Position numbers and translations under genes: made by a program
Notes under the pieces: model-generated
Database searches by the model: none
Told to the model about the DNA's origin: nothing
The model's input: only the letters and a program-made list of their open reading frames with translations
Shown here: piece by piece, positions 14,901-33,874 of the stretch
Layout of the letters: every line of letters begins with the position of its first letter
Position numbering within the stretch: position 1 is the stretch's first letter
From: Dysgonamonadaceae bacterium
GTDB taxonomy: Bacteria > Bacteroidota > Bacteroidia > Bacteroidales > Azobacteroidaceae
NCBI GenBank assembly: GCA_031287395.1
Contig: JAITTA010000287.1
Coordinates: forward strand, 1 to 33,874
Direction: 5' to 3'
DNA: 33,874 bases

Positions 14901-14999
14901 TCATTCCCGGGTTTTGATCCGGGACAGCCGAACGCAAGTATTGGAACTACCGATATGATCACACGAAATATTATTTTTGGCCTCAATTTCTTATTTTAA
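11901..14999 (+). CDS. SusC-like TonB-linked outer-membrane transporter
   Basis: VTGVLKDTGGEPVMGVSVTVVGTGLGTTSDLDGKFQVTVP; TonB-box-like LLDEVVVIGYGSLKRSDLTGAVSSV; ILKDASSTAIYGSRASNGVIIVTTKRG. Confidence 0.96.
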   Translation: MKKFTINLSGKSVLLAFLMFCGGSYYNGFVYADEKGETSIFQGNLKVTGVLKDTGGEPVMGVSVTVVGTGLGTTSDLDGKFQVTVPNTQSKLEFRYLGFATKVITVGNQTTFEITMEEDSKLLDEVVVIGYGSLKRSDLTGAVSSVSMPTLLLSSQTNAFGGMTGTVSGVNIIRNNNKPGGTYDIVVRGLSSISGTNAPLVVIDGIPVPAQGSGQTGFTTGLESINPDDIEKIDILKDASSTAIYGSRASNGVIIVTTKRGNLGKPKVAYSGYAGWREYTHVPEMMSGDEYVQLAREAARAQNNNVYKPDEQVFTDPSELKAVQDHHYYDWLGAISNPALITNHSLQASGGTDAAKYALSGGYYFEDGMVNPQDFTRYTFRSVMDLKLSEHVTFGGSMYLTHTIRNTGNSDLLQDALRMRPTQHPESLVDGSEMWKYASNGLFNPLTTNQNEFNQTKTSNIFVNAYLAVNPVKGLELKSSFSPRLQKDMIGQYRGKWTKANQGTTAGATNNYRKNDYTDFVWDNIANYKWSKGIHNLDITGVFSMQQNVMEGIYGQSQYLTFNSLWYNLQGGSTNSAQSSYTQSSLMSYLARVNYTLLDKYLITASMRYDGSSKLAEGNKWGLFPSAAVAWRLSEESFLMDLRWLSNLKLRLSYGETGNDSVSPYSTDGRISGSQYIVIGGSGVVGNVPNNLRNTKLTWERSAEYNLGLDFGLFDSRISGNIDVYNRLTTNLIMPRSVPATTGYSSVTDNVGSVRNKGIEVTVNTLNVKSGRFTWRTNINLAYNKNEIVDLVFKEDLGAYSEQLEGMVGDFNNKWFIGQPIKINWAYQTLGVWQLGEEAEALKHGLKPGNYRVRDFNDDGVISANKDQFLYGHQTPDWTGGMTNMFNYGNVDFSVNMYFQTGAKIRSQFYVSYALENNNQNFNNMKKDYWTPENPTNASAQPSNMGSYRGSDATHLIFGTDFLKVGYVTLGYTVPKKILSKAGLNQFRFYATMQNPFTFTSFPGFDPGQPNASIGTTDMITRNIIFGLNFLF

Positions 15000-15003
15000 T
15001 TAA

Positions 15004-16839: not shown

Positions 16840-16917
16840 AACTCCAATCCTGTAGGAACTTAAAATTTTATGCCCTTACGGGGAGTCATTTTTACTGATA
16901 ATTATTAAAATACAGAT

Positions 16918-19863
16918 ATGAAAAAAATACTTTTTAGTGTATTATTGTCTGCGATTTGTTTGTTTGTCCGTTCGGCGGAAATCGTCGTTACATCTCCCGA
17001 TAGGAATTACAGGATGAACGTGTATGACAAGGAAGGTTGTATTTATTATTCCGTCTTATACAGAGATGAGCCGGTTGTATTGGAATCGCTGCTCGGCATA
17101 AACGGCAACGGGGAATGGAAAGACGGAATCCGGATTGACAAGTACGCCTTTTCTCAGGCAGACACGCTCTGGAAACCGGTCTATGGTGAACGTAGCGTCG
17201 TACGGGACCGGTGCAATCAATATGAAATAAATCTGGTGAAAACCGCTAATCCCCGTCAGCGACTGCAATTGGTAGTTCGCGCTTATAACGAAGGGATTGC
17301 TTTTCATTATCGCTTTCCGGGAGGCGAGTATCTCCATATCTCCAATGAATATACGGAATATGCTTTTCCGGGAGGAACAAAAGCGTGGTTTACCAGGCAG
17401 GCACAGGCTGTTTATGAATTTTTGCCGTTGCAGGAATGGAAGGGTGAAAGCGAGCGGCCTTTGGTGTTAGAATTGCCGGATAATTTGTATGTGTTGCTTA
17501 CCGAAGCTGGAGTGGTGAATTATGTACGTACCCGGTTTGTTGTGTCGAAAAATAAACCGAATACGATTACCGGTTCCATGTATGGCGCCGTAGATGATAT
17601 AGCTCCATATCAAACGCCCTGGAGGGTGGTGATGGTTGCCGATAAACCGGGAAAGCTGATAGAAAATAACGACTTGCTGCTCAATCTGAATAAGCCTTGT
17701 GAAATAAAAAATCCCCAATGGATTCGTCCGGGAAAAGTCATGCGGGAAGTGACGCTCACTACCGAAGGCGGAAAAGCTTTGGTCGATTTTGCCGTAAAAC
17801 GTCATTTACAATACATTCATTTCGATGCGGGCTGGTATGGTCCCGAAGGAGACAAATTGTCCGATGCGACTACGGTAACGCTGGATCCTGCCCGCAACAA
17901 GAAAATAGATGCCCTGAACCTGCAGGAAGTCATTGCGTATGCCAAGGAACACGGCATCGGAGTGATTCTCTACGTCAATCAACGGGCGCTGTATCGACAA
18001 TTGGATGAAATTTTGCCTTTATACAAAAGTTGGGGTGTTGCCGGAATCAAATTCGGGTTTGTACAGGTCGGATCGCAGTTCTGGACCACATGGATGCACG
18101 AGGCTGTGAAAAAATGCGCTGAATATGGACTGATGGTGGACATCCATGACGAATACCGTCCGACGGGATTCAGCCGGACTTTTCCCAATCTGATGACACA
18201 AGAGGGAATTTACGGTAATGAAGAATTTCCCGATGCGACTCACAATGTTACCTTACCGTTTACCCGCTTTACACAGGGAGCCGCCGATTATACCATCTGT
18301 TATTACCGCCGGAAATGGGACCATAGCACGCAACCCGATACCGGGTACGGACTGGTGAATGCCCGGTTACTGAAAACAACCCCGGCGCACCAGTTGGCGA
18401 TGGCTGTCGTGTATTATAGTCCGTTACAGTATTTGTATTGGTACGATAAGCCGTCCGATAGCCGGGATGAACCCGAACTGGAATTTTTTGATCGTGTACC
18501 TACCGTTTGGGACGATACCAAAGTGGTTCAGGGCGAAATAGGAAAATACATTACCGTGGCCCGCCGTAGTCGTAACGATTGGTTTATAGGTACGATGACC
18601 AACAATGAAGCCCGGAAATTAACCGTTGCATTGGATTTTTTACCGGAAGGAAAGACTTATCTTGCTCGTATTTACTCCGATGATCCGAATGCGGTGAGCC
18701 GGACGAAAGTGGGTATTAAAACGATGAACGTAACGCGCAAATCGGTCATTACCGCGGAGATGCCCGCTTCGGGCGGTCAGGCTATATGGATCCAGGAGCA
18801 AAGCGGGTTTGTTCATCCGGGGGTGCTTCATACGCAGGCAGATATAGAACAGATGCGCCGTTTGATCGGTAACCGGATTGAACCTGCATACGGCTCTTTT
18901 CTTTTATTGAAAGAACATAAGTCTTCTCAGGCGGATTACCGGATGGAAGGCCCTTTTCCCGTGATTTCCCGCGACGGGGAATATCGTCATACCAAAAGTA
19001 AAATGGAAGCCGATTTCAGCGCCGCTTATCAGAATGCTTTGATGTGGATATTGACGAATAATGAATCGCATGCCCGTAAATCGCTTGAAATACTGACTTC
19101 TTATGCCGACAGTCTGACATTGATTCCTGAAACCAACGATGCGCCGCTATTGGCCGGTCTGGAAGGATTAAAAATCATTTACGCCCTTGAGGTATTGAAG
19201 TACACTTATCCGAAAATTACGGACGGGCAACTGAATCATATTGACCGGATGTTCAGGGAAATATTTATCCCTGTGATGGATCGCTTTTACACCCGCAAGC
19301 CTTATACCAATGGGAATTGGGGACCGATTGTCTCGAAGACTTACATGGCGGCGGGTATTTATTTCGACGACCGGGAAATGTATGACAAAGGAAAGAATTT
19401 TTACCTGAATGCCCGTGATAACGGAACGATCGGCTATTACATCAGCGGCAAAACCGGCCAGATACAAGAGAGCGGACGCGATCAGGGACATTGTATGCTG
19501 GGTATCGGAGCAATGGCGACACTTTGTGAAATTGCATGGAAACAGGGAGACGATCTTTATTCGGCCCTGGATAACCGCCTGATGAAAGGTTTTGAGTATG
19601 TTGCCAAATACAACCTCGGTTATGATGTGCCTTTTGAAACCTGGAAGGATATCACGGGAAAATATTGCGAATGGACGGTTATTTCCGATAAAGGCCGCGG
19701 ACGGTTTATTCCGGTTTTCGATATGGCATACAATCATTACGTCAATCGTAAAGGAAAGAAAATGACTTATACGCAGCAGGTATTGGGAAAAATTCGCCCG
19801 GAAGGTTTTGACCGGGACCAGCCGTCGTTCGGTAGCTTGTTATTCAACGATATTAAAAAATAA
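16918..19863 (+). CDS. Two-domain protein: N-terminal GH97-family glycoside hydrolase fused to C-terminal alginate-lyase-superfamily domain (PL38-like candidate)
   Basis: GH97-like N-terminal half (SPDRNYRMNVYDKEGCIYYSVLYRDEPVV; YIHFDAGWYGPE; GVAGIKFGFVQVGSQFW; MVDIHDEYRPTGFSRTFPNLMTQEGIYGNE); C-terminal half from about residue 630 (HPGVLHTQADIEQMRRLI; NGNWGPIVSKTYMAAGIYFDDREMYDKG; IQESGRDQGHCMLGIGAMATLCEIAWKQG). Confidence 0.85.
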   Translation: MKKILFSVLLSAICLFVRSAEIVVTSPDRNYRMNVYDKEGCIYYSVLYRDEPVVLESLLGINGNGEWKDGIRIDKYAFSQADTLWKPVYGERSVVRDRCNQYEINLVKTANPRQRLQLVVRAYNEGIAFHYRFPGGEYLHISNEYTEYAFPGGTKAWFTRQAQAVYEFLPLQEWKGESERPLVLELPDNLYVLLTEAGVVNYVRTRFVVSKNKPNTITGSMYGAVDDIAPYQTPWRVVMVADKPGKLIENNDLLLNLNKPCEIKNPQWIRPGKVMREVTLTTEGGKALVDFAVKRHLQYIHFDAGWYGPEGDKLSDATTVTLDPARNKKIDALNLQEVIAYAKEHGIGVILYVNQRALYRQLDEILPLYKSWGVAGIKFGFVQVGSQFWTTWMHEAVKKCAEYGLMVDIHDEYRPTGFSRTFPNLMTQEGIYGNEEFPDATHNVTLPFTRFTQGAADYTICYYRRKWDHSTQPDTGYGLVNARLLKTTPAHQLAMAVVYYSPLQYLYWYDKPSDSRDEPELEFFDRVPTVWDDTKVVQGEIGKYITVARRSRNDWFIGTMTNNEARKLTVALDFLPEGKTYLARIYSDDPNAVSRTKVGIKTMNVTRKSVITAEMPASGGQAIWIQEQSGFVHPGVLHTQADIEQMRRLIGNRIEPAYGSFLLLKEHKSSQADYRMEGPFPVISRDGEYRHTKSKMEADFSAAYQNALMWILTNNESHARKSLEILTSYADSLTLIPETNDAPLLAGLEGLKIIYALEVLKYTYPKITDGQLNHIDRMFREIFIPVMDRFYTRKPYTNGNWGPIVSKTYMAAGIYFDDREMYDKGKNFYLNARDNGTIGYYISGKTGQIQESGRDQGHCMLGIGAMATLCEIAWKQGDDLYSALDNRLMKGFEYVAKYNLGYDVPFETWKDITGKYCEWTVISDKGRGRFIPVFDMAYNHYVNRKGKKMTYTQQVLGKIRPEGFDRDQPSFGSLLFNDIKK

Positions 19864-19866
19864 TCA

Positions 19867-20409
19867 ATGCAAAATTCTACCCTTTGGGCCGATGTGGCTC
19901 ATCCCATTTTTATCGGTATTCATGGTAATTCGGAAAATCCCGAAATATTGGAAGATTTGAATTATGTCAACATCGATATTCTGGACCATAAAGAAAAACA
20001 AGTTGATTATCAGGGATGTATGGCTATTAATGCCGGTGATGGGAATAAATGATAAAAATTATTGTGGAGAACCGGTAATGACTTATAAGAAACCGGATGT
20101 AGGCAAAACATTTCCTAAAGAAACTCCGGTTGAAAGTGATGAATTCAATTCCGGGAATCTTGGTTTGCAGTGGCAATGGCATGCAAATCCCGGTCAGGCT
20201 TGGGGATTTTTCGTGTCGTGGTAAAAGAAGGGGGAATATGCTCTTTTTCTTACAGTACGGACGGCCGGAAATTCAAAGAATCCGGGATGCGGTTCAATGC
20301 CCGCCGGGGAAAATGGATCGGCGCTAAAATGGGAATGTTTATCCTGAATAAAACTCCCGGTTCCGAACGATCCTGGGTAGACCTGGACTGGTTCAGGGTT
20401 GAGAAATAA
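19867..20409 (+). pseudogene. Decayed remnants of PUL enzymes: GH28-like fragment followed by GH43 C-terminal fragments in different frames
   Basis: 19867-20052 encodes ...NPEILEDLNYVNIDILDHKEKQVDYQGCMAINAGDGNK* (GH28-like); then YCGEPVMTYKKPDVGKTFPKETPVESDEFNSGNLGLQWQWHANP (GH43 C-terminal-like), continuing in another frame as EGGICSFSYSTDGRKFKESGMRFNARRGKWIGAKMGMF...SWVDLDWFRVEK. Confidence 0.65.
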
Positions 20410-20435
20410 AAGAATTTCCGGATCGATCGAGTCAA

Positions 20436-21641
20436 ATGAAAATAAAAATGATGAAGATACTAATTTTGAGTTTATTAGCTTTGATAATCATGACATCCTG
20501 TTCGACAGGGAAACAGGAAGAATCCTTCGATGTGAATCGTGCTTTGAAGTATTGTGATACGCAGGTAAAAAGAACGTTGGCGGAAATAGGAGATACCGTC
20601 ATGATGCCGCGTAATATCATGGACAGCCTGAGCCATTGGTCCCTTGTCCCGGTCGAAATATCGGAGTGGACGGCCGGCTTCTGGCCGGGAATTCTTTGGT
20701 ATGACTATGAAAATACAAAAGATGAGAAGATAAAAGAACATGCGATTCACTATACGGAATTGTTAGCCCCTCTGACTAAGCTTCCGGCTTATGACCATGA
20801 TCTCGGATTTCAGATTTTTTGCAGTTATGGAAATGCCTGGCGTTTGACCGGTAAAGAGGAGTATAGGCAAATTATCCTGAATGCGGCAGATACTTTGGCA
20901 ACCCTGTTCAATTCAAAAGTCGGTACCATCCTCTCCTGGCCCCGGGAGATAGAACCTCGTAACTGGCCTCATAATGTTATTATGGATAATATGATAAATC
21001 TGGAAATGCTGTTCTGGGCAGCCAAAAACGGAGGAAACAGGAATTTGTACCATATTGCGGTGGAACATGCCGTCACCACCATGAAGAACCATTTCCGCGA
21101 GGATGGTTCCGGCTATCATGTCGCGGTGTACGATACGATCACCGGCCGTTTGATCAAAACTGTGACCCACCAGGGATATGCCGACGAAACGATGTGGGCC
21201 AGAGGACAAGCTTGGGCTATCTACGGATATACCCTGGTGTACCGCGAAACAAAGGATGTTCGATTCCTTCGTTTTACCGAAAAAATAACGGATATTTATC
21301 TGCAACGTTTACCGGAAGACTTTGTCCCTTATTGGGATTTTGACGCTCCTAATATCCCCGATGAACCCAAAGATGCATCTTCCGCTGCCATTGTCGCTTC
21401 CGCCCTTTTGGAACTATCAGGTCTGGAAGATAACAAAGAGAAAGCCGCAGAATATAAAACGGCTGCTGTGAAAATGCTGAAAAGCCTCTCATCGGCCGGT
21501 TATCAAAGCAGGGAAAGTAAGCCCTCGTTCCTGCTGCATTCCACAGGACATATGCCGAACGGTTCGGAAGTGGATGCATCGATCAATTATGCCGACTATT
21601 ATTATATTGAAGCATTGATCCGATTGAAAAGCATGCGGTAA
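20436..21641 (+). CDS. GH88-family unsaturated glucuronyl hydrolase (lipoprotein)
   Basis: Lipobox LIIMTSCSTGKQ; EWTAGFWPGILWYDYE, HDLGFQIFCSYGNAWRLTG, HQGYADETMWARGQAWAIYGYT, PYWDFDAPNIPDEPKDASSAAIVASALLELS, DASINYADYYYIEALIRL. Confidence 0.93.
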   Translation: MKIKMMKILILSLLALIIMTSCSTGKQEESFDVNRALKYCDTQVKRTLAEIGDTVMMPRNIMDSLSHWSLVPVEISEWTAGFWPGILWYDYENTKDEKIKEHAIHYTELLAPLTKLPAYDHDLGFQIFCSYGNAWRLTGKEEYRQIILNAADTLATLFNSKVGTILSWPREIEPRNWPHNVIMDNMINLEMLFWAAKNGGNRNLYHIAVEHAVTTMKNHFREDGSGYHVAVYDTITGRLIKTVTHQGYADETMWARGQAWAIYGYTLVYRETKDVRFLRFTEKITDIYLQRLPEDFVPYWDFDAPNIPDEPKDASSAAIVASALLELSGLEDNKEKAAEYKTAAVKMLKSLSSAGYQSRESKPSFLLHSTGHMPNGSEVDASINYADYYYIEALIRLKSMR

Positions 21642-21837
21642 AATGGAATGTTTTTAATACAAAACCTGACTCCATCCCTGTTATTTACAAATATGAAGAA
21701 TAACTTCTCAGTTATTATGTTTAAGATATTTGTATATATGAAATAGATTTATTTTTATTTTTCCTTGAATAATTTGCATAATTAAGAATAAATTTTATTA
21801 ACTTTGATGAATTTGATATACTTTAATATCAAAATTG

Positions 21838-21894
21838 AAAACAAAACTATAAAAATAATAATAATGTTGTTTATTATTTTTGTAGTTTTGTTTT
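21838..21894. repeat. Long inverted repeat (24-bp arms, 9-nt loop) upstream of cas6
   Basis: AAAACAAAACTATAAAAATAATAA (21838-21861) versus TTATTATTTTTGTAGTTTTGTTTT (21871-21894); 23/24 complementary, the exception being a G-U wobble in RNA. TAnnTTTG match TATTTTTG at 21875-21882 inside the right arm. Confidence 0.8.
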
Positions 21895-21930
21895 GACACT
21901 GATTCCTTTAACTTTTTCTTGTTAATAAAC

Positions 21931-22932
21931 ATGAACGATTTCTTAATACCGTACCATGATTTGTGTTATCATCGCTTGGATGTAAGGATTACAGCCGTGA
22001 AGGACACCATTTTCGATGCGTGGCCGGGAGCAATTATCCGGAATAATCTTTTGTTTGCTTCGGAACAAATACCGGTTGGTGGAGAAATGTCGCTGAGGGA
22101 AAAAATTAACAGGATTCCGTTGTTATCATCTCATCCGTTATACAAAGATTTGGCCGGCGGGTTTCCTCGTGGTTACCAGGTTACATTACAATCTAACCAT
22201 GATATGACTTCTTCCGTCTTTTTAAGGAAAAATGAAATCTTGTGTTTTTCCGTCATCCTGATTGGAGATATGGCTCAATATTTTAACTATTTCATTCGGG
22301 CAATCCGGTTGATGTGTCAGCGAGGTTTCGGATATCCGATGGTTCCGTTTTTGTTGATCGATGTCAATGAAAGGTCTTATTCGGGAGAATGTCAATTATT
22401 GGCAACAGAGCAATCCGGCTTGTCGGACCGGTTACAATACCCTGTACGATTAAGCGACTTTTATCCCAATCAGCCAAAGGGGAATAAAAAATCACTAAAA
22501 ATAATGTTCGAGACTCCGGTCAGCTTATTTAAACAAACCAAGAAAAAAGACACTAAAATCAGTTATCAGGATAAAACCAACGGGTTTCCGAGTTTTTATC
22601 AATTGGTACGCTCGATGGTTTTCAGGTTACAAAAACTGCACACTTTATATGTAGATCCGGATAATTATTTTGATTCGGAAGAACAGATAGAAGATTATTT
22701 GAATCATGCGCGGGAATGTTCGCTGTTGGCGGCTGATATCCGTAAAATAGTCCTGCAAAGCACTCCCAAGAAAGAAACGGAGGATCGGATTCAATTTGGC
22801 GGTTATATAGGAGAATTGTCGTTCGACGGTGATTTTTCGGGTTATATCCCGCTTTTGCGGTTTATGCAGGAATTGGGAGTGGGAGATGGTGTGGTTTATG
22901 GGATGGGGAGGTTTCGAACGAATATAAAGTGA
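21931..22932 (+). CDS. cas6: CRISPR-associated endoribonuclease Cas6
   Basis: RAMP-like C-terminus FGGYIGELSFDGDFSGYIPLLRFMQELGVGDGVVYGMGRFRT (glycine-rich loop); first gene of the Cmr operon. ATG at 21931 preferred over the TTG at 21919. Confidence 0.85.
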   Translation: MNDFLIPYHDLCYHRLDVRITAVKDTIFDAWPGAIIRNNLLFASEQIPVGGEMSLREKINRIPLLSSHPLYKDLAGGFPRGYQVTLQSNHDMTSSVFLRKNEILCFSVILIGDMAQYFNYFIRAIRLMCQRGFGYPMVPFLLIDVNERSYSGECQLLATEQSGLSDRLQYPVRLSDFYPNQPKGNKKSLKIMFETPVSLFKQTKKKDTKISYQDKTNGFPSFYQLVRSMVFRLQKLHTLYVDPDNYFDSEEQIEDYLNHARECSLLAADIRKIVLQSTPKKETEDRIQFGGYIGELSFDGDFSGYIPLLRFMQELGVGDGVVYGMGRFRTNIK

Positions 22933-22960: not shown

Positions 22961-23728
22961 ATGAAACAGTTTATTTTTTTACTGGGAGGATACGACCTGG
23001 AAATGCTTGAAATCAAAAGAATACTGGAGTCAAGAGATGATATTCTCGTCTTTGATGAGCATTTGAGATGGGATAATGCGGATTTATCCATGTATAGTAC
23101 AGTCTTGAAAAAATATGGTAATAATGCGGATGTAATGATCTATGGGATCGAATTATACGAAAAGAATATTTCATCTGTTCCTGAAAATTATCATCGGATT
23201 GATCATCATAATGATTTAAATGATAAAAATTCGGCATTGGAACAAGTCGCTGAAATTCTGAGAATTAAACTTTCAAGGGAACAACAATTAATTGCGGCAA
23301 ACGATAGAGGATATATTCCGGCAATGAAGGCCTTAGGAGCTGATCCCGGCGAAATTGAAGAAATCAGGAAAAAAGATAGGAACATACAAGGTGTCACGGA
23401 AGAGGATGAACAAAAAGCAGAAATGGCCATTAAAAACAAGGTGCTTGAACAGGACATTGTTGTCGTAAAATCGGAAACCAATCGTTTTTCCCCGATTTGT
23501 GACCGGCTATATCCATACGACAAACTACTGGTTTATACCTGTAATGAACTGATGTATTATGGTATTGGAAAGGAAAAATTAGCACAACAATTTGAGAATG
23601 AGATAAAAGAAGGGAAAATGTTTCATGGAGGAGGAGCAGAAGGCTATATCGGTACGGCAAGAGGCGCTTACTCCAACAACGAGATTTTAAACATGAAAAA
23701 CAATATTATTCAACTAATCAATCAATAA
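22961..23728 (+). CDS. DHH-family phosphodiesterase, NrN-like (putative SAM-AMP hydrolase / signalling off-switch)
   Basis: YHRIDHHNDLND (DHH motif), FLLGGYDLEMLEIKRI N-terminus, AANDRGYIPAM, C-terminal GGGAEGYIG glycine-rich motif; directly upstream of a CorA-like gene in a cmr operon. Confidence 0.75.
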   Translation: MKQFIFLLGGYDLEMLEIKRILESRDDILVFDEHLRWDNADLSMYSTVLKKYGNNADVMIYGIELYEKNISSVPENYHRIDHHNDLNDKNSALEQVAEILRIKLSREQQLIAANDRGYIPAMKALGADPGEIEEIRKKDRNIQGVTEEDEQKAEMAIKNKVLEQDIVVVKSETNRFSPICDRLYPYDKLLVYTCNELMYYGIGKEKLAQQFENEIKEGKMFHGGGAEGYIGTARGAYSNNEILNMKNNIIQLINQ

Positions 23729-23735
23729 TAGTATT

Positions 23736-25205
23736 ATGTACAGCTATCACATTTTTTATTTTCCGTTTATATGGGAAAATCCCGAAACAAAAGGAAAATT
23801 GTTTTCCGAACAAACTAATTTGTCGGTAATTCCGGTTAATACATATACCAACTGGTTACGCAGTCCTGATATGTCGGATAAGGAAAAGGAAGATTTTTAC
23901 AATGAGCAAAACTTTTATTATAAGTATGTACACCCGGTTTTGTACGATAAAAAAGACAAAGAACCCATTGTCTGCCACTACGAAAGAAAAGAACCGCAGG
24001 AGCATGAAGTAAGTTATATCATTTCGGTAAAAGATGGAAAAACGTATAAACTGAAAGTAGATGCTATGAATCTTAACCTGTATGCTACAGGAGTGGGTAT
24101 GTTGACTTTTTATCTGAAAAACGAAAAGGAAGATCAAAAAGAACCGCAGGATATTTTAAAGATTAATCAATATGGCAGACGAATATTTCCGCCGTTTTTT
24201 GCTGATATTGGCTTTAGAAACGAAACGGCGGTATTCCTGCAAATAGAAGGATTGAATGGCGAACAAAGCAATTTCTGCGAAGATTTTTCTTCATACGGAA
24301 CGCCCAATTCCGACAATCTTTATACGGCATGGAGACCTGCATGTTTTATCAAATATTTGATTGCCGACTTGTCGGAAACAATAGAAATAAAACCCGTGAT
24401 AGATGACAGGATGTTTGTATCTTCCTGGTATAAAAACAATGACTTGACTAAAAAATTCGAGCAGACTGAAGAATCGCTCGATGATTTTTTTAGCAAGGAT
24501 GATTTTTGGTATAAATACCTTTTTGTAGATATTAACGACCCTACCTGTCAAAACGATGCAATGAAAAAAGAACTTGTTGAGAAGCATACTTACAAACGTT
24601 GGCAGAAAGGAGGTTCACTTTATGGAATTTCGCGCTATTCGTTTGTCATGCTTACAAACAATAAGTGTCCCGATTTTCTTTTGCAATACTTCCAAACAAT
24701 GTACGCCCGAATGACAGAACTTGTACTTTTACAACGCGCTTCCCGGCTGCGTTTCTCGGACGAAGTAAACCGTTTGAGCAATCTTTCGAGAAAAAACGTC
24801 CCTGACAAAAAAATGATCGAACAAATCAGTTCTTTGTATAAGGAGTATATACGTTTTATCAATCGTATTTATTTTAAAGATGTTACTGCGCAGGAACAGG
24901 GAATAGAATTATACGACATGTTTTTCAAGACAATGAATGTGAGCGAACACGTAAAAGAATTGGACGAAGAAATAAATGAATTGAATGAGTATGTAAATAT
25001 GCTTGATGATAAAATCCGGAATAAACATGCCAAGGCATTGAACACTATTGCGATTATATTTTTGCCTGCAACATTCGTGTTTAGTTGGTTCGGTATGAAT
25101 GACTATTGGGATATTCCTTTATGGAAAGGATTTCTTATTGGTTTGTCTGCTTCGGCTGTTGGGAGTGTGATATTATTATATTTGATTAATAAATTTAAAA
25201 AATAA
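23736..25205 (+). CDS. CRISPR-associated CorA-like membrane effector
   Basis: C-terminal two-TM CorA architecture with GMN motif (ATFVFSWFGMNDYW; GMN codons at 25092-25100), second TM GFLIGLSASAVGSVILLYLIN; preceding long helical/coiled-coil segment; large non-CorA N-terminal domain. Confidence 0.85.
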   Translation: MYSYHIFYFPFIWENPETKGKLFSEQTNLSVIPVNTYTNWLRSPDMSDKEKEDFYNEQNFYYKYVHPVLYDKKDKEPIVCHYERKEPQEHEVSYIISVKDGKTYKLKVDAMNLNLYATGVGMLTFYLKNEKEDQKEPQDILKINQYGRRIFPPFFADIGFRNETAVFLQIEGLNGEQSNFCEDFSSYGTPNSDNLYTAWRPACFIKYLIADLSETIEIKPVIDDRMFVSSWYKNNDLTKKFEQTEESLDDFFSKDDFWYKYLFVDINDPTCQNDAMKKELVEKHTYKRWQKGGSLYGISRYSFVMLTNNKCPDFLLQYFQTMYARMTELVLLQRASRLRFSDEVNRLSNLSRKNVPDKKMIEQISSLYKEYIRFINRIYFKDVTAQEQGIELYDMFFKTMNVSEHVKELDEEINELNEYVNMLDDKIRNKHAKALNTIAIIFLPATFVFSWFGMNDYWDIPLWKGFLIGLSASAVGSVILLYLINKFKK

Positions 25206-25210
25206 ATAAT

Positions 25211-25678
25211 ATGGAAAGGAAAATTGACATTCAGTTATCGCCTTGGGTTTATACAGTATTTTTTGCCCTTATGGTTTGCGCAATTGTTTTCATAGAAAAT
25301 TACTGTCAGAGGGGAGTGCCGTTTTGCAAAATGATTATTGTTGCTGTTTTTATGCTCTCGCTATTTATTGTTTCGGCAGTAGTTTTATACAAATCGTTCA
25401 AAATAAATGTGGAAAACAATGAAAAACAAAAAGAGTTTGAGCGCAAAAAGGAATGGGAAACATTTCAGCACAGTCTTTATAAAGAAGAAAGAGAGGAAAA
25501 ATGGCATTACGATGCAATAAAGGCGCTTATTGAGAAATTAGACGACAAGGAAATTAAAGAGGAGTTTCCATTAAAAAAAGAAGTTGAAACATTAAAAACT
25601 GACTTGGCTGAACTGAAAAAAGAAAAAGATAAAAAATATTTCGTTGAGTTCGTAAATTCCTTAAAATCCAAAAAATAA
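25211..25678 (+). CDS. Small membrane protein of unknown function: two N-terminal TM helices plus charged coiled-coil tail
   Basis: Hydrophobic stretches WVYTVFFALMVCAIVFI and MIIVAVFMLSLFIVSAVVLY, then a Lys/Glu-rich helical tail; 5 bp after the corA stop and 4 bp before cmr1. Confidence 0.8.
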   Translation: MERKIDIQLSPWVYTVFFALMVCAIVFIENYCQRGVPFCKMIIVAVFMLSLFIVSAVVLYKSFKINVENNEKQKEFERKKEWETFQHSLYKEEREEKWHYDAIKALIEKLDDKEIKEEFPLKKEVETLKTDLAELKKEKDKKYFVEFVNSLKSKK

Positions 25679-25682
25679 TAAT

Positions 25683-26912
25683 ATGAATACATTAACGGTA
25701 ACATTAAAACAGCACACCCCCCTGATTCATTTTCAGCATGATCAGGAGGGCGCAACGCTTCGGGCTTCGGAAGTGAAGCCGAAGTTGGACAGGTTTATAT
25801 TGACGAAACTTGGCAATGGCGATTATGGAAAAGGTAAAACTGAAGCTAAAAAGAGTGGTTTGACAATCGGAGGTCAAGAAACAGCGTTGGATTATAAAAT
25901 GAAATTTATTGTTAATGAAGCACCTGAAATTTTCTACAACAATGAAGTTCAAAAAGACCGGCAGGGAAATGCACAAACCGTTATTCGTAAAGACGGACGG
26001 ATTATTAAGAAACTTAAACCATATCCACTTTTCTTTGCCAATTTGAATACAAACATAGACAATCCTTTGGAATACAAATGTTTCAGTATGCTTCATAAAC
26101 CTTTTGAAATGAAATTGCAAAGTTTTAACAAAGATTTATTGGATCAAATAGAGAAGCAGACCATAAACTTAGGTCAATTCTTTCAATATACAAACTTTGG
26201 CACTCGACAATCAAAGGGATTTGGTTCTTTTTATATTGAGGAAAATGATAAATTGCACGAAGATATTGAGGATTTAAAATACCGATTCAGTGTCGATGTC
26301 AGAAGTGAAAGTAAAAAGTGGCTTGATTTGTTTACTGCAATTGATCTATTTTATAAATCTTTGCGCAGTGGAATTAACATTTGTTGGGGTGATAAATTCT
26401 ATATGAAACCGGCTATTTTTCAATATGCAAAAGATAGAAATTACGATTGGGACAAAAAATTAATAAAGGATTTCTTTTTTAATAATAATTCTCCAAAACA
26501 ACAGAATGATTTTTTATTTAAGGACTTACTTGGATTATCAAGTGAAGAAAGCTGGATGTCATACGGGACAAATATCTCTAAGGAACATTCAACGTCAGAT
26601 ATTAAACGGTTTCAATCTCCAATTATCATCAAACCAATATTGAGAGATGGATATTTTGACGTTTTTGTAGATGCAAACCCAAATGCTAAAGAATTGTTTG
26701 AAAAGTATTGCGGCCAAGTATTTAATATAATACGGTCTAAGAATCCTGAAGAGAAACTTAAATTGAAAACATTTCCCAACTTTGACATTAATGATTTTCT
26801 TGAATTTGCTCTATTGAAAAATGATATTGGCAGATTGACTACGGGTATAAATCACGAAAAATTTTTAGAATTAACAAATATTTATAATGAAATAAAGAAA
26901 GAACATGAATAA
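25683..26912 (+). CDS. cmr1: Type III-B RAMP protein Cmr1
   Basis: N-terminal RAMP strand LTVTLKQHTPLIHFQHDQEGATLRASEVKPKLDRFI and FFQYTNFGTRQSKGFGSFYI glycine-rich region; first cmr gene, immediately before cas10. Confidence 0.85.
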   Translation: MNTLTVTLKQHTPLIHFQHDQEGATLRASEVKPKLDRFILTKLGNGDYGKGKTEAKKSGLTIGGQETALDYKMKFIVNEAPEIFYNNEVQKDRQGNAQTVIRKDGRIIKKLKPYPLFFANLNTNIDNPLEYKCFSMLHKPFEMKLQSFNKDLLDQIEKQTINLGQFFQYTNFGTRQSKGFGSFYIEENDKLHEDIEDLKYRFSVDVRSESKKWLDLFTAIDLFYKSLRSGINICWGDKFYMKPAIFQYAKDRNYDWDKKLIKDFFFNNNSPKQQNDFLFKDLLGLSSEESWMSYGTNISKEHSTSDIKRFQSPIIIKPILRDGYFDVFVDANPNAKELFEKYCGQVFNIIRSKNPEEKLKLKTFPNFDINDFLEFALLKNDIGRLTTGINHEKFLELTNIYNEIKKEHE

Positions 26913-28437
26913 GTATTTTGCTATCACAATTGGGCCGGTCATCAGGACATTATCCATGGCTAGAAAACCTCGTGAGCTATGGTCGGCGAGCTATATGTTT
27001 TCAAAATTGATGGAAAAATTAAGAGCCGAAATTCCGGAAGACGCAATCATATCTCCGGCAACAAGAGGAAACAAGGATATTGGCGACGTAGGGCTTTATC
27101 CTGATCGGATATATTTTAAAAATCCTGGAAATGGCTGGGATATAAACAAAGTAATTGACTGTGTAAAAGTAAATTATGCTGATGAAATTGTAATTTGTGC
27201 CGATTATTTTAGAATTTATGCTGTTGAGATTGAAGCGGACGGTGATGAGGATATTATTAAAAAATTGAATGAACGTTTGGATTGTTTGGAATTATGCAAT
27301 ATAGCTCTTCCTCAAGATACAGAAAATTCTGTATTTAATTCCATTATTGGGAATAAAATATGGACAAAATATCACAAATCCGGAAAACAGATTGAGACGT
27401 TAGCCGAAATTGCCTCTGCGCAATTAGAGCAAATAGATGAGAATGGCTATAAAAAATGTTTGAGTCAAAATAAGGGACAAGACAACGAGGATAAACTTAT
27501 AAAAGAACTCAAAAATAAATTTCCTGAGAAATTCATAACGCCTCATAAGTATATTTGTATTGTACATGCCGACGGAGATAATATAGGTACAATTGCAGGA
27601 TCCGTTACAATTGAAGAATTGAAGACTTTATCCCAACGATTACTGAAATTTGGAGACAAGGCATGCGAATCTATCAAACAATACCAAGGTTTCCCTATTT
27701 ATGCGGGTGGAGACGATTTGCTTTTCATTGCTCCTGTTGTTTCCGGAAAAGAAGAAACCAGGACAATTTTTGATTTGATAAAGCAAATTGATGATGATTT
27801 TAAAGAGACGAAAGTTTCGGAAATAACCGGAAAGGATAATAAAGGAAATACATTAGTTCCTGCCATGTCATATGGAATCTCAATTACCTATTATAAATAT
27901 CCTTTATATGAGTCCTTGGAAATGTCAAGAAATCTTTTATTTGGCATCTCCAAAGAACTAAAGAAAAAGGATGAAAAGGGAAAAGATACAGATGAAAAAT
28001 TGAAAAATGCAATTGCATGGACACTACAGAGAGGAAGTGGTGCCACAGTAACTGGAGTTTTTTCTAAAGGTTCTGAAAATTCTAAAGATTCTGAAAAGTT
28101 ATATGAGGCATATCAATCTCTGATAAAAAGTATTAACGTGAAGACTGATAAAAATTTAGTTTCGGCTGTCGCTCACAAAATTAAGAACAATGAAGAATTG
28201 CTGGGTTTATTTATGGGGACAGCTAATCAAGATGAACGGTTAGTTGCCTTTTTTAAAAATTATCTTGAATATGAAACAAAAAAAGCAGATGAAAAAATAT
28301 ATCTGGATGCCGTAAAAGGATTATTTAAAGTATTACAATCGACAACAAATAATATCAAAGAAACAACAAAAATAATTTATGCGATGCTTCGTACGGCAAA
28401 ATTTATAAAAGGTTTGGAGGACGATAAAGATGAATAG
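26905..28437 (+). CDS. cmr2: Cas10/Cmr2, HD-less, with intact GGDD palm motif
   Basis: ICIVHADGDNIGTIAG and FPIYAGGDDLLFIAPV (GGDD codons 27706-27717); LWSASYMFSKLMEKL N-terminal motif; only 510 aa and no N-terminal HD nuclease motif seen. Confidence 0.95.
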   Translation: MNKYFAITIGPVIRTLSMARKPRELWSASYMFSKLMEKLRAEIPEDAIISPATRGNKDIGDVGLYPDRIYFKNPGNGWDINKVIDCVKVNYADEIVICADYFRIYAVEIEADGDEDIIKKLNERLDCLELCNIALPQDTENSVFNSIIGNKIWTKYHKSGKQIETLAEIASAQLEQIDENGYKKCLSQNKGQDNEDKLIKELKNKFPEKFITPHKYICIVHADGDNIGTIAGSVTIEELKTLSQRLLKFGDKACESIKQYQGFPIYAGGDDLLFIAPVVSGKEETRTIFDLIKQIDDDFKETKVSEITGKDNKGNTLVPAMSYGISITYYKYPLYESLEMSRNLLFGISKELKKKDEKGKDTDEKLKNAIAWTLQRGSGATVTGVFSKGSENSKDSEKLYEAYQSLIKSINVKTDKNLVSAVAHKIKNNEELLGLFMGTANQDERLVAFFKNYLEYETKKADEKIYLDAVKGLFKVLQSTTNNIKETTKIIYAMLRTAKFIKGLEDDKDE

Positions 28438-29605
28438 ATATTTAATAACATTGACCCCGATAGATAAATTCTTTTTCGGGGGCGAGGCTACTTTCACAAG
28501 AGGGAAGAATAGCGACAATAAAGATTTAAAAAAATTTGACGAATTATATAGTAGTTATGTGGTAAAGTCCAATTTATTACCGCAGCAAACATCTTTACTT
28601 GGTATGTTGAGATTCTTGCTTTTGTCGAATAACAAAGATTTATTTGTGGATAATAAAATTAACGCAGAGAAGAAAAACGATGTTATCGAGTTGATCGGTC
28701 CAACAAGTTTCAATGTTGATGAAAATAATTTTAGCGAAATGAAATTTGGTAAAATTAAATTTGTTTTTCCTTGTTTTATTCAACGTAAAAAAGAAGGGGA
28801 CACCGAATGGGAAAATTTGATTTATGCACCGTTAGATTATTCTTTGAGAAAAGTTTCTTTTGAAAAAGGGAAGTCTTTATTAGATAAAGAAAATAATTTA
28901 ACTCCTATAATTGAGGGTTATGACGCAAAAAAAGGGTTACCGTCTCAATATATCGGATGTAAAACAAAATGGATAGACGAATCCTGCCTATTTAAAAAAG
29001 ATGTGAGAATAGGAATAGACCGGGATATTAAAGGAAAAACAAAAGAAGGGGCTTATTATAAACAAATTTTTTACCGTTTCTCGGATAAATATCCAATCTC
29101 AAAAGAAGAATGTAAATCACATTGCCTGAGATTTGCATTTTATGCAGATTTGGATTATGATATATCTTCAGATCAAAAATTCATTGTTTCGTTAGGCGGC
29201 GACAATTCACAATTTATACTTCAGGCGGAGAAAACAACAGATAATTCTGAAATTCAATTGCCTGAAGCATACTGTAATACAACAAATTTTGATAATTGTT
29301 ATGCTAAAATTGTTCTGATTTCAGATGCTCTTATCAAAAAAGAAACTGTCAATGAATCAATTTTCGGGATAAATGATACCATTATTTTTCGTTTTCTCAC
29401 TTCTGATCTGGATACCGAAAATTACTATAAATTTTCAGGAAATAAGCATTTGAAAAGAAATGAAAAGAAATACAATCTTTATAAGCGTGGTTCTGTTTTT
29501 TATTTCAAAGGTGAAGAAGATGTGAAACATTTTGAAACTGCATTAAAAGAAAACAAACGTTTTCGTCAAATAGGATATAATTATTATCAAACAATTAAAA
29601 AATAA
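28430..29605 (+). CDS. cmr3: Type III-B RAMP protein Cmr3
   Basis: YLITLTPIDKFFFGGEATFTRG...SNLLPQQTSLLGMLRFLLL. Confidence 0.92.
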   Translation: MNRYLITLTPIDKFFFGGEATFTRGKNSDNKDLKKFDELYSSYVVKSNLLPQQTSLLGMLRFLLLSNNKDLFVDNKINAEKKNDVIELIGPTSFNVDENNFSEMKFGKIKFVFPCFIQRKKEGDTEWENLIYAPLDYSLRKVSFEKGKSLLDKENNLTPIIEGYDAKKGLPSQYIGCKTKWIDESCLFKKDVRIGIDRDIKGKTKEGAYYKQIFYRFSDKYPISKEECKSHCLRFAFYADLDYDISSDQKFIVSLGGDNSQFILQAEKTTDNSEIQLPEAYCNTTNFDNCYAKIVLISDALIKKETVNESIFGINDTIIFRFLTSDLDTENYYKFSGNKHLKRNEKKYNLYKRGSVFYFKGEEDVKHFETALKENKRFRQIGYNYYQTIKK

Positions 29606-29610
29606 AAATC

Positions 29611-30393
29611 ATGGAAAATAAAGTATGGTTAATAACCACAAAAACAAATTTGCATGTAGGGAATGAAAATACATCAAATTACGGCTTGATTGATAAATCT
29701 GTTCAACGCGATGTTCTTACCGGATTGCCTTGTATTAATGGCAGTTCCTTGAAAGGCGCGTTAAATGAGTTTTTTGCCGTAAAGAAAACCGGGAAAATAA
29801 ATTTAGTAAAAGTATTTGGAGCCGATAAAATGGACAATAGCAAAGATAAAGAAACGAGAAAAGGCGAATATTCCTTTTTGGACGCACAATTATTGTCTAT
29901 TCCGGTACAGAGCAATAACCGCTTGTTCTATCGGGCAACTTCGCCGGGTATATTGAAAAAATTTGTTGAGCAACTGAATTTATTTGGAATAAAATATGAC
30001 GCCTTCAACTTGGGTTTTGACCTTTCCTCTCCAATCGTTTTTACGGAAGATGGGACAAAGTTAGGTGATTTCGATGCAAAAAAAGAAATTGTAAACGATA
30101 CGGTAAAAAGAATTGAAGAATTGATAGGTAAAGACATTGCCATTTTTAATGATGAATACTTTAAAGAATTATGTGGCGATGATAATTTACCTATAATCGC
30201 TCGGAATAAATTAGATAATGGTAAAAGCGAAAACCTTTGGTACGAACAGGCGCTTCCTCAAGAAACTATTTTCTACTCGTTGTTTTTGTCGCTTGAAAAT
30301 GATATTACAAAAGAAATATTGAGTGGAGAAATCGTTCAGATAGGAGCCAATGCAACTATCGGATTCGGATATTGCCAATTCAAACAATTATAA
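29611..30393 (+). CDS. cmr4: Type III-B RAMP protein Cmr4
   Basis: WLITTKTNLHVGNENTSNYGLIDKSVQRDVLTGLPCINGSSLKGALNEFF; C-terminal EIVQIGANATIGFGYCQF. Confidence 0.95.
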   Translation: MENKVWLITTKTNLHVGNENTSNYGLIDKSVQRDVLTGLPCINGSSLKGALNEFFAVKKTGKINLVKVFGADKMDNSKDKETRKGEYSFLDAQLLSIPVQSNNRLFYRATSPGILKKFVEQLNLFGIKYDAFNLGFDLSSPIVFTEDGTKLGDFDAKKEIVNDTVKRIEELIGKDIAIFNDEYFKELCGDDNLPIIARNKLDNGKSENLWYEQALPQETIFYSLFLSLENDITKEILSGEIVQIGANATIGFGYCQFKQL

Positions 30394-30403
30394 TTTTACA
30401 GCC

Positions 30404-30790
30404 ATGAGTAAAAAAAGAAATAACGAATTGCTGAAAAAAGCGGAAGAAGCTTTGAGAAAGACGGAATATGTCGATATTCTTAACAACGAAACCATCAAGG
30501 ATTCATATAAAGGTCAAACCGCAGCTTTGGGTGTGACTATTGCCATGAGTGGATTAAGACCTGCTTTGGCAATATACCAGAAGAAAACGGATGAATGTGA
30601 TAAATTGCAGATTTTAAATGCCATTGCCGTAATGATGGGTATAAATCAAATAGATGCAGGAAAAAAACTATTTAGTGATGTGATGAAATGTGATGATGTA
30701 AATCAATTGAATAATTATAAAAGGAATATTATTGACTGTTCCATCGCATTGAAACAGATAATTCAAACTTATAAATTAGTTAAACTATGA
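30404..30790 (+). CDS. cmr5: Type III-B small subunit Cmr5
   Basis: Small helical protein between cmr4 and cmr6; AALGVTIAMSGLRPALAIYQ. ATG at 30404 chosen over the ORF-track start at 30350, which overlaps cmr4. Confidence 0.9.
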   Translation: MSKKRNNELLKKAEEALRKTEYVDILNNETIKDSYKGQTAALGVTIAMSGLRPALAIYQKKTDECDKLQILNAIAVMMGINQIDAGKKLFSDVMKCDDVNQLNNYKRNIIDCSIALKQIIQTYKLVKL

Positions 30791-31575
30791 AAAATATCAG
30801 TTGGTTGTTTTACAAAGAATATTTTCAGGAAATTGATTTTTCCGGTATCAAGGATATAAATAAAGACATCAAAAATAAGGAACTTATTAAGTCGAGGAAT
30901 TTAAAAATTACGAATGCGGAATTATGTAAAATCGATAATCCTGTTGCAAATCAACGAGTACAGATGCAAATTGAATATCCTGGATTGGCAACAGGGATAG
31001 GAATTAATCATGAAGCATCTGTTGAGGGAGAATTTAAACTGGGTATGCACTTCGATTATACTTATGGTATGCCCGTAATTCATGGTTCTTCCGTCAAAGG
31101 ATTGTTACGTAATGCTTTCCCTGAAAATGAGATAAAAGAGAAAGAAAGGGAAACGGAAGCCGAAAAAGAAAATAGAATCCGGAAAAATAGAATCCGGATT
31201 TGTAAAATAGACCAAATCAGAGAATATCTTGAAAAAGTATCTGAGGATTTGGATATTGATAAATTACGGGATGAAATTTTTGAAAGCGTTGGTTCTATCT
31301 ACAATCGTGACATTTTTTACGACGCTGTAATTGTGAAATCAAACAAGAAAAATAAAATTTTGGCTTCGGATTCTATCACTCCTCATAAGAATCCATTACA
31401 AGAGCCTAATCCGATTACATTCCTGAAGATTGCCTCCGGTGTTACTATAGAATTTCGATTCGATTTGAAAGATGGTATTATTTCTGCAGAAGAGAAATGT
31501 AATATTTTCAAACGTATTCTGTTGGATTATGGCGTCGGAGCTAAAACAAACGTTGGATACGGACAACTAACTTAG
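30787..31575 (+). CDS. cmr6: Type III-B RAMP protein Cmr6
   Basis: LATGIGINHEASVEGEFKLGMHFDYTYGMPVIHGSSVKGLLRNAFP; C-terminal LLDYGVGAKTNVGYGQL. Confidence 0.93.
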   Translation: MKNISWLFYKEYFQEIDFSGIKDINKDIKNKELIKSRNLKITNAELCKIDNPVANQRVQMQIEYPGLATGIGINHEASVEGEFKLGMHFDYTYGMPVIHGSSVKGLLRNAFPENEIKEKERETEAEKENRIRKNRIRICKIDQIREYLEKVSEDLDIDKLRDEIFESVGSIYNRDIFYDAVIVKSNKKNKILASDSITPHKNPLQEPNPITFLKIASGVTIEFRFDLKDGIISAEEKCNIFKRILLDYGVGAKTNVGYGQLT

Positions 31576-31590
31576 TGAATAGTAGCTGTT

Positions 31591-32994
31591 ATGGATACAT
31601 TGATGAATGAATTATCATATAAAGTTGATATGTTGATCTCAGAACAAAGAGCCTCGAAAAATCGGAGTCGTGTAAAAAATGAAAAAACGAAAAATACAGA
31701 GGATATCCAAAAAGTATTATCCATCTGTGATCAGATAATTAATTTAGATTGTAAAGACAAGCTTTCGGAAAAATATGCAAGGTTCATCAGAGCTGTTTGT
31801 TATTCTGAAAAAGAAAAGTGGTATGATGCATTTAAGGATTTGAAAGATTTGGGTTATGAGGATTATTGGATATACAAACAAAAACGTAAATATACAGGGC
31901 TTTATGACGAGATGATTTCTTGTAACCTTAAAGATTGTGACATAGAAGAAAACAGTGATATATTTCATACTTATCTTTCTAATTGCCATAAGATTTATGA
32001 TTGTATTTTTAAAATTATGGATTTCTTAATTGTAGAAGATGAAAATTTGCGAATAAGCCATTACACAACAAAGAAAACTGTTGAAAAATTATTATTTGAC
32101 AATAGTCCGCTCCGGATGTGTTCAATGGCAACTGCAAATGATCCAAGTGAAGGAAGAGTAATTTATGAATTTTTGGAACATCCTGAATGGTATGATGCAG
32201 TAATTGGAAAAAATAAACTTCAATGTTTTGTTACCTGTTTTACTTTCGATTCAAATTGTCTGAATCATTTTCGTCTTTATGGGAAAGAGAATGAGAAAGA
32301 AGCTACGGGCGTAAGTTTAGGTTTCGAGGCTGAAGCATTTGACTGTTTAATATCAGATCAATTAAAATTTGAAGAAAAGACCCTTTTTTTTGAAAAATAC
32401 AAAAAAGCACATTTGTTCAGATGTCTTTATATTTATCCTGTAACGAAAGATATAATATCTATTGGGCATACAGAATATGAAGAAATAAAAGAAGATTGGG
32501 AGGTTCTAACAAAAGATAAAATGTGTACAATGTTTGAGAAAGAAAAGAAGATAGTATCAGAAGAGAATATGAAGGAAATAAGAACGAAGATGAATGAAAT
32601 GCAAAAAAATATTAATAACTTTATTAATATAGAAGAAAACAAAATTAATATAGAAGAAAATAAAATTATTATAGATGAAAACAAAGCGAAAAGAATAGAA
32701 ATTGTTTCCAAAATGTTGCTGAATTTGAGTTATATTGTTAAACATGCAGCTTTTAAAGAAGAACAGGAGAGTAGATTGTTTTATATTGTAAAACTTAACA
32801 GTACAAAAAGCTATATTAAATTTTGTGATAATTCTCGGAAAATGTATGTGGAGTACGATTTACCAATGGAAAAACTCAAAAAAATTACTTTTGCTCCAAA
32901 AACGACTGAATATTTGCTATTGAAAGACAGGTTAGAATTATTTGATGGTTTTGAAACGGTAGAATGCGTTCAAAGTAAATTACCTATTGCATAA
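31591..32994 (+). CDS. DUF2971-like protein with N-terminal helical (TPR-like) region and internal heptad repeat
   Basis: LRISHYTTKKTVEKLLFDNSPLRMCSMATANDPSEGRVIYEFL and CFVTCFTFDSNCLNHFRLYGKENEKEATGVSLGFEAEAF are DUF2971-like; 16 bp downstream of cmr6. Confidence 0.65.
   Translation: MDTLMNELSYKVDMLISEQRASKNRSRVKNEKTKNTEDIQKVLSICDQIINLDCKDKLSEKYARFIRAVCYSEKEKWYDAFKDLKDLGYEDYWIYKQKRKYTGLYDEMISCNLKDCDIEENSDIFHTYLSNCHKIYDCIFKIMDFLIVEDENLRISHYTTKKTVEKLLFDNSPLRMCSMATANDPSEGRVIYEFLEHPEWYDAVIGKNKLQCFVTCFTFDSNCLNHFRLYGKENEKEATGVSLGFEAEAFDCLISDQLKFEEKTLFFEKYKKAHLFRCLYIYPVTKDIISIGHTEYEEIKEDWEVLTKDKMCTMFEKEKKIVSEENMKEIRTKMNEMQKNINNFINIEENKINIEENKIIIDENKAKRIEIVSKMLLNLSYIVKHAAFKEEQESRLFYIVKLNSTKSYIKFCDNSRKMYVEYDLPMEKLKKITFAPKTTEYLLLKDRLELFDGFETVECVQSKLPIA
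32623..32685 (+). repeat. Three tandem 21-bp units inside the DUF2971-like CDS
   Basis: attaatatagaagaaaacaaa / attaatatagaagaaaataaa / attattatagatgaaaacaaa, encoding INIEENK INIEENK IIIDENK. Confidence 0.9.
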
Positions 32995-33017
32995 ATTAAA
33001 TTATTAATTTAGATATA

Positions 33018-33874
33018 ATGCTCACCCCTCTCTTCCGCACTCTCTGTCTTCCCGTCACGCTCCACAGCGCCTGGAAGCTCGTCAAATCGAAAAACTCCGC
33101 CGGAGGAATCGACGGACTTTCCATTGTGCAGTTTGAGGAGAATCTGGCGGAAAACCTGGCGGATTTGCGGCAGGAATTAATTCATAAAACCTGGAATCCC
33201 GAACCGTACCTGCGGGTGGAAATTCCAAAAAAAGAAACGGAAATCCGCCGGTTAGGCTTGTTAAGCATCCGGGATAAAATCGTGCAGCAGGCAATCAAAA
33301 CGCTGATTGAACCGAAGATGGAGAAACTGTTCCTGAATAACAGTTACGGTTATCGTCCCGGAAAAGGGCCTGCAAGAGCGATTCGCCGGGTGATGTATAT
33401 CTATAATCAGGTGAAGCGGGGTTGGGTAGCTAAGCTGGATATCGATGATTATTTCGATACCATCAAGCAGGAACAACTGTTTATCAGCCTGCAAAACTTG
33501 TTGAAAGACGAGGAAATCGTGCGGCTGATTGAGCTTTGCCTGAAAACGGGAGTGGTTACGAAGCAATTGAAATGGAGCGAAACCGGCAAAGGCCTGCCGC
33601 AGGGAGCGGTTTTGTCCCCGTTGCTGGCTAATTTTTATTTGCATCCTTTCGATCAATTTGTGGTAAACAAAATCCCAAACTATGTCCGTTACGCCGATGA
33701 TTTCTTGGTAATTTCGGGCAATAGAGAGGAATTGGAGACAACTGTCCGGGATATTGAAGCTATATTGGAGAGCAAATTTTCATTGAAGCTGAACACCCCC
33801 GTCATTACCGACCTGGAAACGGGAACGGAGTTTTTAGGGATATGGATCAAGCGGTCGGGGTTAACATTGACCGA
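33018..33874 (+). CDS. Group II-intron-like reverse transcriptase, CRISPR-associated; probable N-terminal part of RT-Cas1 (truncated by window end)
   Basis: Open from ATG 33018 to the window end (absent from the ORF track because there is no stop). RT motifs: NSAGGIDGLS, IRDKIVQQAIKTLIEPKMEKLFLNNSYGYRPGKG, VAKLDIDDYFDTI, GLPQGAVLSPLLANFYLH, VRYADDFLVIS (YADD at 33690-33701). Confidence 0.9.
   Translation, partial: MLTPLFRTLCLPVTLHSAWKLVKSKNSAGGIDGLSIVQFEENLAENLADLRQELIHKTWNPEPYLRVEIPKKETEIRRLGLLSIRDKIVQQAIKTLIEPKMEKLFLNNSYGYRPGKGPARAIRRVMYIYNQVKRGWVAKLDIDDYFDTIKQEQLFISLQNLLKDEEIVRLIELCLKTGVVTKQLKWSETGKGLPQGAVLSPLLANFYLHPFDQFVVNKIPNYVRYADDFLVISGNREELETTVRDIEAILESKFSLKLNTPVITDLETGTEFLGIWIKRSGLTLT

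Follow-up and report, generated by a model that had tools for sequence, protein, structure and literature searches.

The window analyzed here, a 33,874-nucleotide stretch of DNA from a Dysgonamonadaceae bacterium (contig JAITTA010000287.1), contains an apparent type III-B CRISPR operon in which a 155-aa open reading frame (ORF) is wedged between corA and cmr1. This raises the question of whether the ORF is a real gene and, if so, what its product might do next to CorA, the signature effector of SAM-AMP signaling.

The operon and its neighborhood

Profile and PDB matches of the NrN, CorA and Cmr products (Table 1) indicate that the locus is a CorA/NrN type III-B CRISPR system of the SAM-AMP kind. 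The genes run in the order Cas6-NrN-CorA-ORF-Cmr1-Cas10-Cmr3, followed by a RAMP protein (Cmr4), Cmr5, a further RAMP protein (Cmr6) and a 467-aa gene. The Cas10 is predicted from its sequence to make SAM-AMP. R148/R149 and D223/D224 of the window CorA are conserved in the alignment of CRISPR CorA proteins and, judging from motif position alone, probably correspond to R152/R153 and D219/D220 of B. fragilis CorA, which were mutated by Chi et al. (PMC10600005). No CRISPR array was found near the operon (window 19800-20500, 21600-22000 and 32900-33874 were searched), and it may be located past the end of the contig. Searches of Pfam, PADLOC, NCBIfam and the PDB gave no match for the 467-aa gene 3' of cmr6 (window 31591-32994), and it has no homologue among the other CorA loci at 1e-4. 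Polysaccharide-utilisation genes adjoin the CRISPR operon (window 11901-19863); these include SusC-like and SusD-like genes and encode a 981-aa protein combining GH97 and alginate-lyase domains.

Table 1. Features of the CRISPR operon in the window, with the evidence for each assignment
Feature	Position	Strand	Evidence
Cas6	21919..22932	+	Pfam PF10040; PADLOC
NrN, DHH-family SAM-AMP phosphodiesterase, IDHHND motif	22961..23728	+	PADLOC DHH_CorA 9e-79; PDB NrN 9lq9 4e-67
CRISPR-type CorA, 489 aa, SAM-AMP-effector family, GMN motif kept	23736..25205	+	PADLOC PDLC01174 5e-125; Pfam PF01544
Small membrane/coiled-coil protein, 155 aa	25211..25678	+	ORF translation; same-position homologues in other CorA loci
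Cmr1	25683..26912	+	PADLOC PDLC01492 8e-81
Cas10/Cmr2, 510 aa, GGDD cyclase motif	26905..28437	+	Pfam, PADLOC; motif in sequence
Cmr3	28430..29605	+	Pfam, PADLOC
RAMP protein, Cmr4 by position	29611..30393	+	Pfam PF03787
Cmr5	30350..30790	+	Pfam, PADLOC
RAMP protein, Cmr6 by position	30787..31575	+	Pfam PF03787

The 155-aa ORF starts with an ATG at 25211, has its stop codon at 25676-25678, and is separated by 5 nt from the end of corA and by 4 nt from the start of cmr1. Homologues at the same position in other CorA loci, a phmmer match (3e-10) to the protein of a Seramator thermalis isolate (L055) and purifying selection in the L058/L059 pair (see below) together establish it as a real gene, beyond chance.

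Predicted structure of the small protein

Hydropathy places two transmembrane (TM) segments at residues 10-28 and 41-59 of the window protein, and charged residues make up 51% of its tail. An AlphaFold2 model built with 12 relatives predicts a TM1 helix at about 11-32 and a single helix at 37-116 that would comprise TM2 and a cytosolic stalk, with pLDDT blocks of 92-98 over residues 51-110; two short helices at the C-terminal end (122-135 and 140-154) are modeled with low confidence. A second AlphaFold2 model, of the Seramator thermalis member, has a TM hairpin, a helix at 74-150 and helices at 157-174 and 181-206, so that the two models predict the same layout. The preliminary description of this ORF, which had read from the sequence a 155-aa protein with two N-terminal TM segments, a long charged helical tail and gaps of 5 and 4 bp to its neighbors, is thus corroborated by the ORF coordinates, hydropathy and AlphaFold2. 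Charge bias puts the tail of the single-TM forms of the protein in the cytosol and is less clear-cut for the two-TM forms, which likely adopt an N-in/C-in hairpin. The hydrophobic periodicity of the stalk peaks at 3.66, a value that is not taken as evidence here.

Recurrence directly behind corA

With the window protein as a single query, searches of 148 related genomes recovered weak coiled-coil matches only, and therefore loci were sought by way of CorA and the adjoining gene was read. A single-sequence CorA search of the genome contigs returned nothing; the search with the CRISPR CorA alignment succeeded and furnished 80 named CorA loci, to which whole-genome searches added 5. The gene scored was one lying directly behind corA and encoding one or two N-terminal TM segments followed by a highly charged helical tail. 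It is present in 36 of 81 scorable loci (~44%), a count in which L072 and L097 look like one locus counted twice and the L128 product has just 48 aa. The products range from 48 to 213 aa (median 152), and the gene starts between -25 and +19 nt relative to the corA stop. In 11/37 loci the start overlaps that stop by 4 nt, which suggests coupled translation of corA and the small gene. Most CorA loci without the small gene have cmr1 directly after corA, and where the corA-cmr1 gap exceeds 150 nt the small gene lies inside it in 31 of 34 loci; in L068, one of the three exceptions, the gap is occupied by cas6. Isolates among the small-gene loci include Seramator thermalis, Xylanibacter muris and Parabacteroides acidifaciens. 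Mapped on the CorA tree, presence of the small gene undergoes 14 state changes.

Interrupted genes are seen at several loci. The small protein of L064 (7536-7778 onward), and also that of L143, is encoded in two ORFs that overlap by 4 nt; the parts in L064 are an 80-aa TM/stalk portion and a 62-aa C-terminal portion that looks like the C-terminus of the L099 protein, and the split is either a natural fission or a frameshift. In L072, L045 and L103 it is corA that appears to be spread over at least two ORFs, through pseudogene formation, assembly error or frameshift, and the downstream small TM gene is intact.

Family limits and selection

Comparison by phmmer at 18 bits or more delineates a group of 11 members (window, L036, L055, L056, L060, L062, L063, L065, L067, L099 and L103); at this cut-off, and over every protein compared, there were 41 real matches versus 1 among 50-fold more shuffled decoys. 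The group is confined to one CorA clade, and a second small-protein group (L079, L082, L088, L090) sits in a different one. Members of the window group share the position behind corA, the one or two TM segments with a charged helix and a detectable sequence kinship, and so constitute a family. Beyond this group, membership is defined by shared position and layout: sequence conservation across the small proteins is very weak, and hhalign of two wider profile groups, Bacteroidales (A2) and Saprospiria/other (A3), aligned only 13 columns at 69% probability, the divergence being so high that homology between the two is without sequence support.

The window protein matches no Pfam family, including the CorA family PF01544, and nothing in PADLOC at 0.001, and it has no solved relative in the PDB by either sequence or fold. 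PADLOC and NCBIfam profiles run on groups A2 and A3 gave scattered weak matches, nearly all to single members; 2TM effector, LiaS, PspB and the like were rejected as identities, these matches reflecting membrane/coiled-coil composition.

In the L058/L059 pair dN/dS is ~0.33 for the small protein versus 0.09 for CorA, and in other pairs identity is 33-40% for the small protein versus 58-69% for CorA. The small protein is hence under purifying selection that is looser than that on CorA.

Specificity for CorA

Counted over the same loci, small TM genes come after CorA in 33 of 84 cases, as against 1 of 332 for the other recognised cassette genes. The reverse reading, a gene linked to cmr1, was rejected on the basis of L060 and L062, in which the small gene directly follows corA and is itself followed by cas6, and of four CorA-less type III-B loci, none of which (0/4) has a small TM gene ahead of cmr1. 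When 394 genomes were searched with a profile of the window group, the strong matches (E below 1e-17) adjoined CorA only and were the loci from which the profile was built; the weaker matches are mostly coiled-coil stretches in large ORFs. The association of the small gene with CorA is therefore well supported: the partnership with CorA anticipated in the preliminary description holds as an association, and the 394-genome search did not find homologues to lie mainly outside CRISPR loci, the outcome that would have counted against it. In L163, a III-B locus devoid of CorA, Cmr1 is part of a 641-aa ORF that is extended at its N-terminus; the gene ahead of it encodes 279 aa with two internal TM segments.

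SAM-AMP-degrading enzymes and NrN-CorA fusions

Many Bacteroidota loci have, upstream of corA, a DEDD (RNase T/oligoribonuclease-like) gene in place of NrN (L066, L072, L076, L080, L081, L083, L084, L086, L087, L101, L102, L118, L124, L038, L044 and L045), and this replacement occurs even between close sister CorAs. The small proteins of one such sister pair, L066 (DEDD) and L071 (NrN), are homologous and 40% identical, and L081 (DEDD) clusters with L082/L088/L090 (NrN) on the CorA tree. Given that the small gene is kept across the NrN/DEDD switch, its partner is more likely to be CorA than one particular degrading enzyme.

The small gene is missing from all 17 NrN-CorA fusions, whereas 36 of the 64 loci without a fusion carry it (naive Fisher 1e-5); for the CorA clade of the window the corresponding counts of carriers are 0/4 and 20/24 (p 0.003). 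Phylogeny-aware pairs stand at 0 vs 2-4, in this direction throughout and with p at best 0.125, so that the absence from fusions is suggestive and not significant once phylogeny is corrected for. Two plasmid loci, of Haliscomenobacter and Arcobacter, encode an over-long, apparently fused CorA and are likewise without the small gene. A long tail of their own was considered as a substitute in CorAs that have no small gene and is not supported, most of these tails being short after the last TM helix, as in the other CorAs. In several CRISPR CorAs hydropathy alone predicts three C-terminal TM helices rather than two (L073, L075-L077, L080-L082, L084, L086-L088, L090, L092, L096 and L098).

A candidate auxiliary subunit of the CorA channel

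The existence of the small protein, its layout, position, CorA specificity, selection and retention across the change of enzyme are supported by the above observations. We propose, with about even confidence, that it serves the CRISPR CorA channel as a so far undescribed auxiliary subunit, restraining, gating or assembling it. The protein, presumably co-translated with corA, would be held in the inner membrane through one or two helices and extend its helical stalk and small helical end into the cytosol. It could pack on the CorA pentamer with its TM helices flanking the pore and its stalk along the cytosolic funnel, and would set when the pore opens upon SAM-AMP, the most likely mode being that it keeps the pore shut, or aids assembly, until SAM-AMP binds. 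Binding to CorA and the sense in which the protein acts on the channel are what we infer. A restraining partner is plausible because CorA alone is toxic in B. fragilis, a property reported as hard to explain (PMC10600005). In the same study B. fragilis CorA and NrN provide immunity in E. coli with no third protein added; this two-protein immunity and the absence of the gene from about half of the loci indicate that it is not universally required.

The main rival to the subunit reading is a membrane tether, in which NrN or DEDD would be held at CorA, by the stalk or by the hairpin of C-terminal helices, for local SAM-AMP removal. We consider this unlikely. The absence of the small gene from NrN-CorA fusions, overall and in the window's clade, and from the two plasmid loci would be expected of a tether, as would the finding that B. 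fragilis CorA and NrN are functionally linked yet showed no physical interaction in vitro (PMC10600005); however, the phylogeny-aware pairs are too few, the small protein is retained where an unrelated DEDD enzyme substitutes for NrN, and it is missing from many loci (11) in which NrN is separate and unfused. A CorA-specific antitoxin or guard, which would neutralise stray CorA or sense phage inhibition of CorA, appears quite improbable to us. Such a role would explain why the small protein evolves faster than CorA, in both dN/dS and identity, and would suit a CorA that is toxic without SAM-AMP (PMC10600005), but the rate may just reflect a loosely constrained coiled-coil sequence, and no phage partner is known.

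Less likely, and to be given only a small chance, is that the protein is an effector in its own right, a second membrane pore that is gated by a nucleotide as in Csx23 and acts in parallel to CorA. Csx23 is comparable in size and gross layout (PMC11014256), but the window protein has no PDB match by sequence or fold, its tail is modeled as an extended helix instead of a folded ligand-binding domain, forms of 63-80 aa have little room for a sensor, and in the loci surveyed the small gene is seen with CorA only. That it is merely a loosely constrained passenger of the cassette with no immunity role is highly improbable: its patchy presence, with frequent state changes on the CorA tree, and its very weak sequence conservation are what a passenger would show, but its strict place behind corA, the retained membrane layout and the purifying selection argue otherwise.

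Returning to the auxiliary subunit, we tentatively extend the proposal to a possible three-part membrane machine for SAM-AMP CRISPR immunity in many Bacteroidota, made up of the CorA pore, a SAM-AMP-degrading enzyme and an auxiliary subunit that would hold CorA shut or couple degradation to gating. If this were true, reconstitutions without the subunit could contribute to the toxicity of CorA and to the requirement for SAM-AMP degradation, and an NrN-CorA fusion would make the auxiliary subunit dispensable. The toxicity of CorA alone and the need for SAM-AMP degradation in immunity are still unexplained (PMC10600005, PMC12255297). Linked to corA in a sizeable fraction of the Bacteroidota CorA loci, the membrane gene is a concrete candidate for a missing component, and reconstitutions from CorA and NrN may miss a small subunit where the locus encodes one.

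CorA, NrN, DEDD and the SAM-AMP lyase are described in PMC10600005, PMC12255297, PMC11229360 and PMC12669027, whose accessible portions do not mention any small membrane protein linked to corA; older neighborhood surveys might list the family. Together with the lack of convincing Pfam, PADLOC, NCBIfam and PDB matches, this agrees with the preliminary placement of the ORF outside the described CorA/NrN/Cmr set, and we regard the small gene as adding a new component to a known system. The 2024 effector survey set unknown genes aside where a known effector was present and re-added some by hand (PMC11229360); this design, the small size of the gene and its fast evolution may be why it was overlooked.

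Comparison with known systems

The window operon resembles the CorA/NrN type III-B system of B. fragilis (Chi et al. 2023, PMC10600005) in having Cas6, a DHH-family NrN, CorA, Cmr1-6 and a GGDD Cas10; the set tested there comprised Cmr, Cas6, CorA and NrN, and a small membrane protein is unmentioned in the part of that paper accessible to us. Csx23, a Vibrio cholerae type III effector with a 68-residue two-TM domain and a 91-residue cytosolic domain (PMC11014256), is like the window protein in its length of ~155-160 aa, two N-terminal TM helices and cytosolic C-terminal part, and the TM segments of the window protein fit an N-terminal two-TM domain of ~68 residues. Csx23 differs in its folded, tetrameric cA4-binding domain, whereas in the model of the window protein an extended helix is followed by short terminal helices, and the protein goes with CorA; a Csx23-related C-terminal cA4-binding domain was not found in it by PDB sequence search, fold search or in the all-helical model.

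With the CorA Mg2+ channel family (PF01544) the small protein shares membrane segments and a long cytosolic helix, but it has no GMN motif and its stalk comes after the TM segments. In CorA structures the long cytosolic helix comes before TM1. The CorA-like gross layout suggested earlier therefore stands for the combination of membrane segments and long helix; the order of the helices is reversed, and the comparison is a loose one. Csx27 and Csx28 of type VI-B are small membrane accessory proteins that are encoded beside a CRISPR effector and modulate it. Compared by description, the protein studied here is akin to them as a small membrane protein beside an effector, and differs in the CRISPR type to which it belongs.
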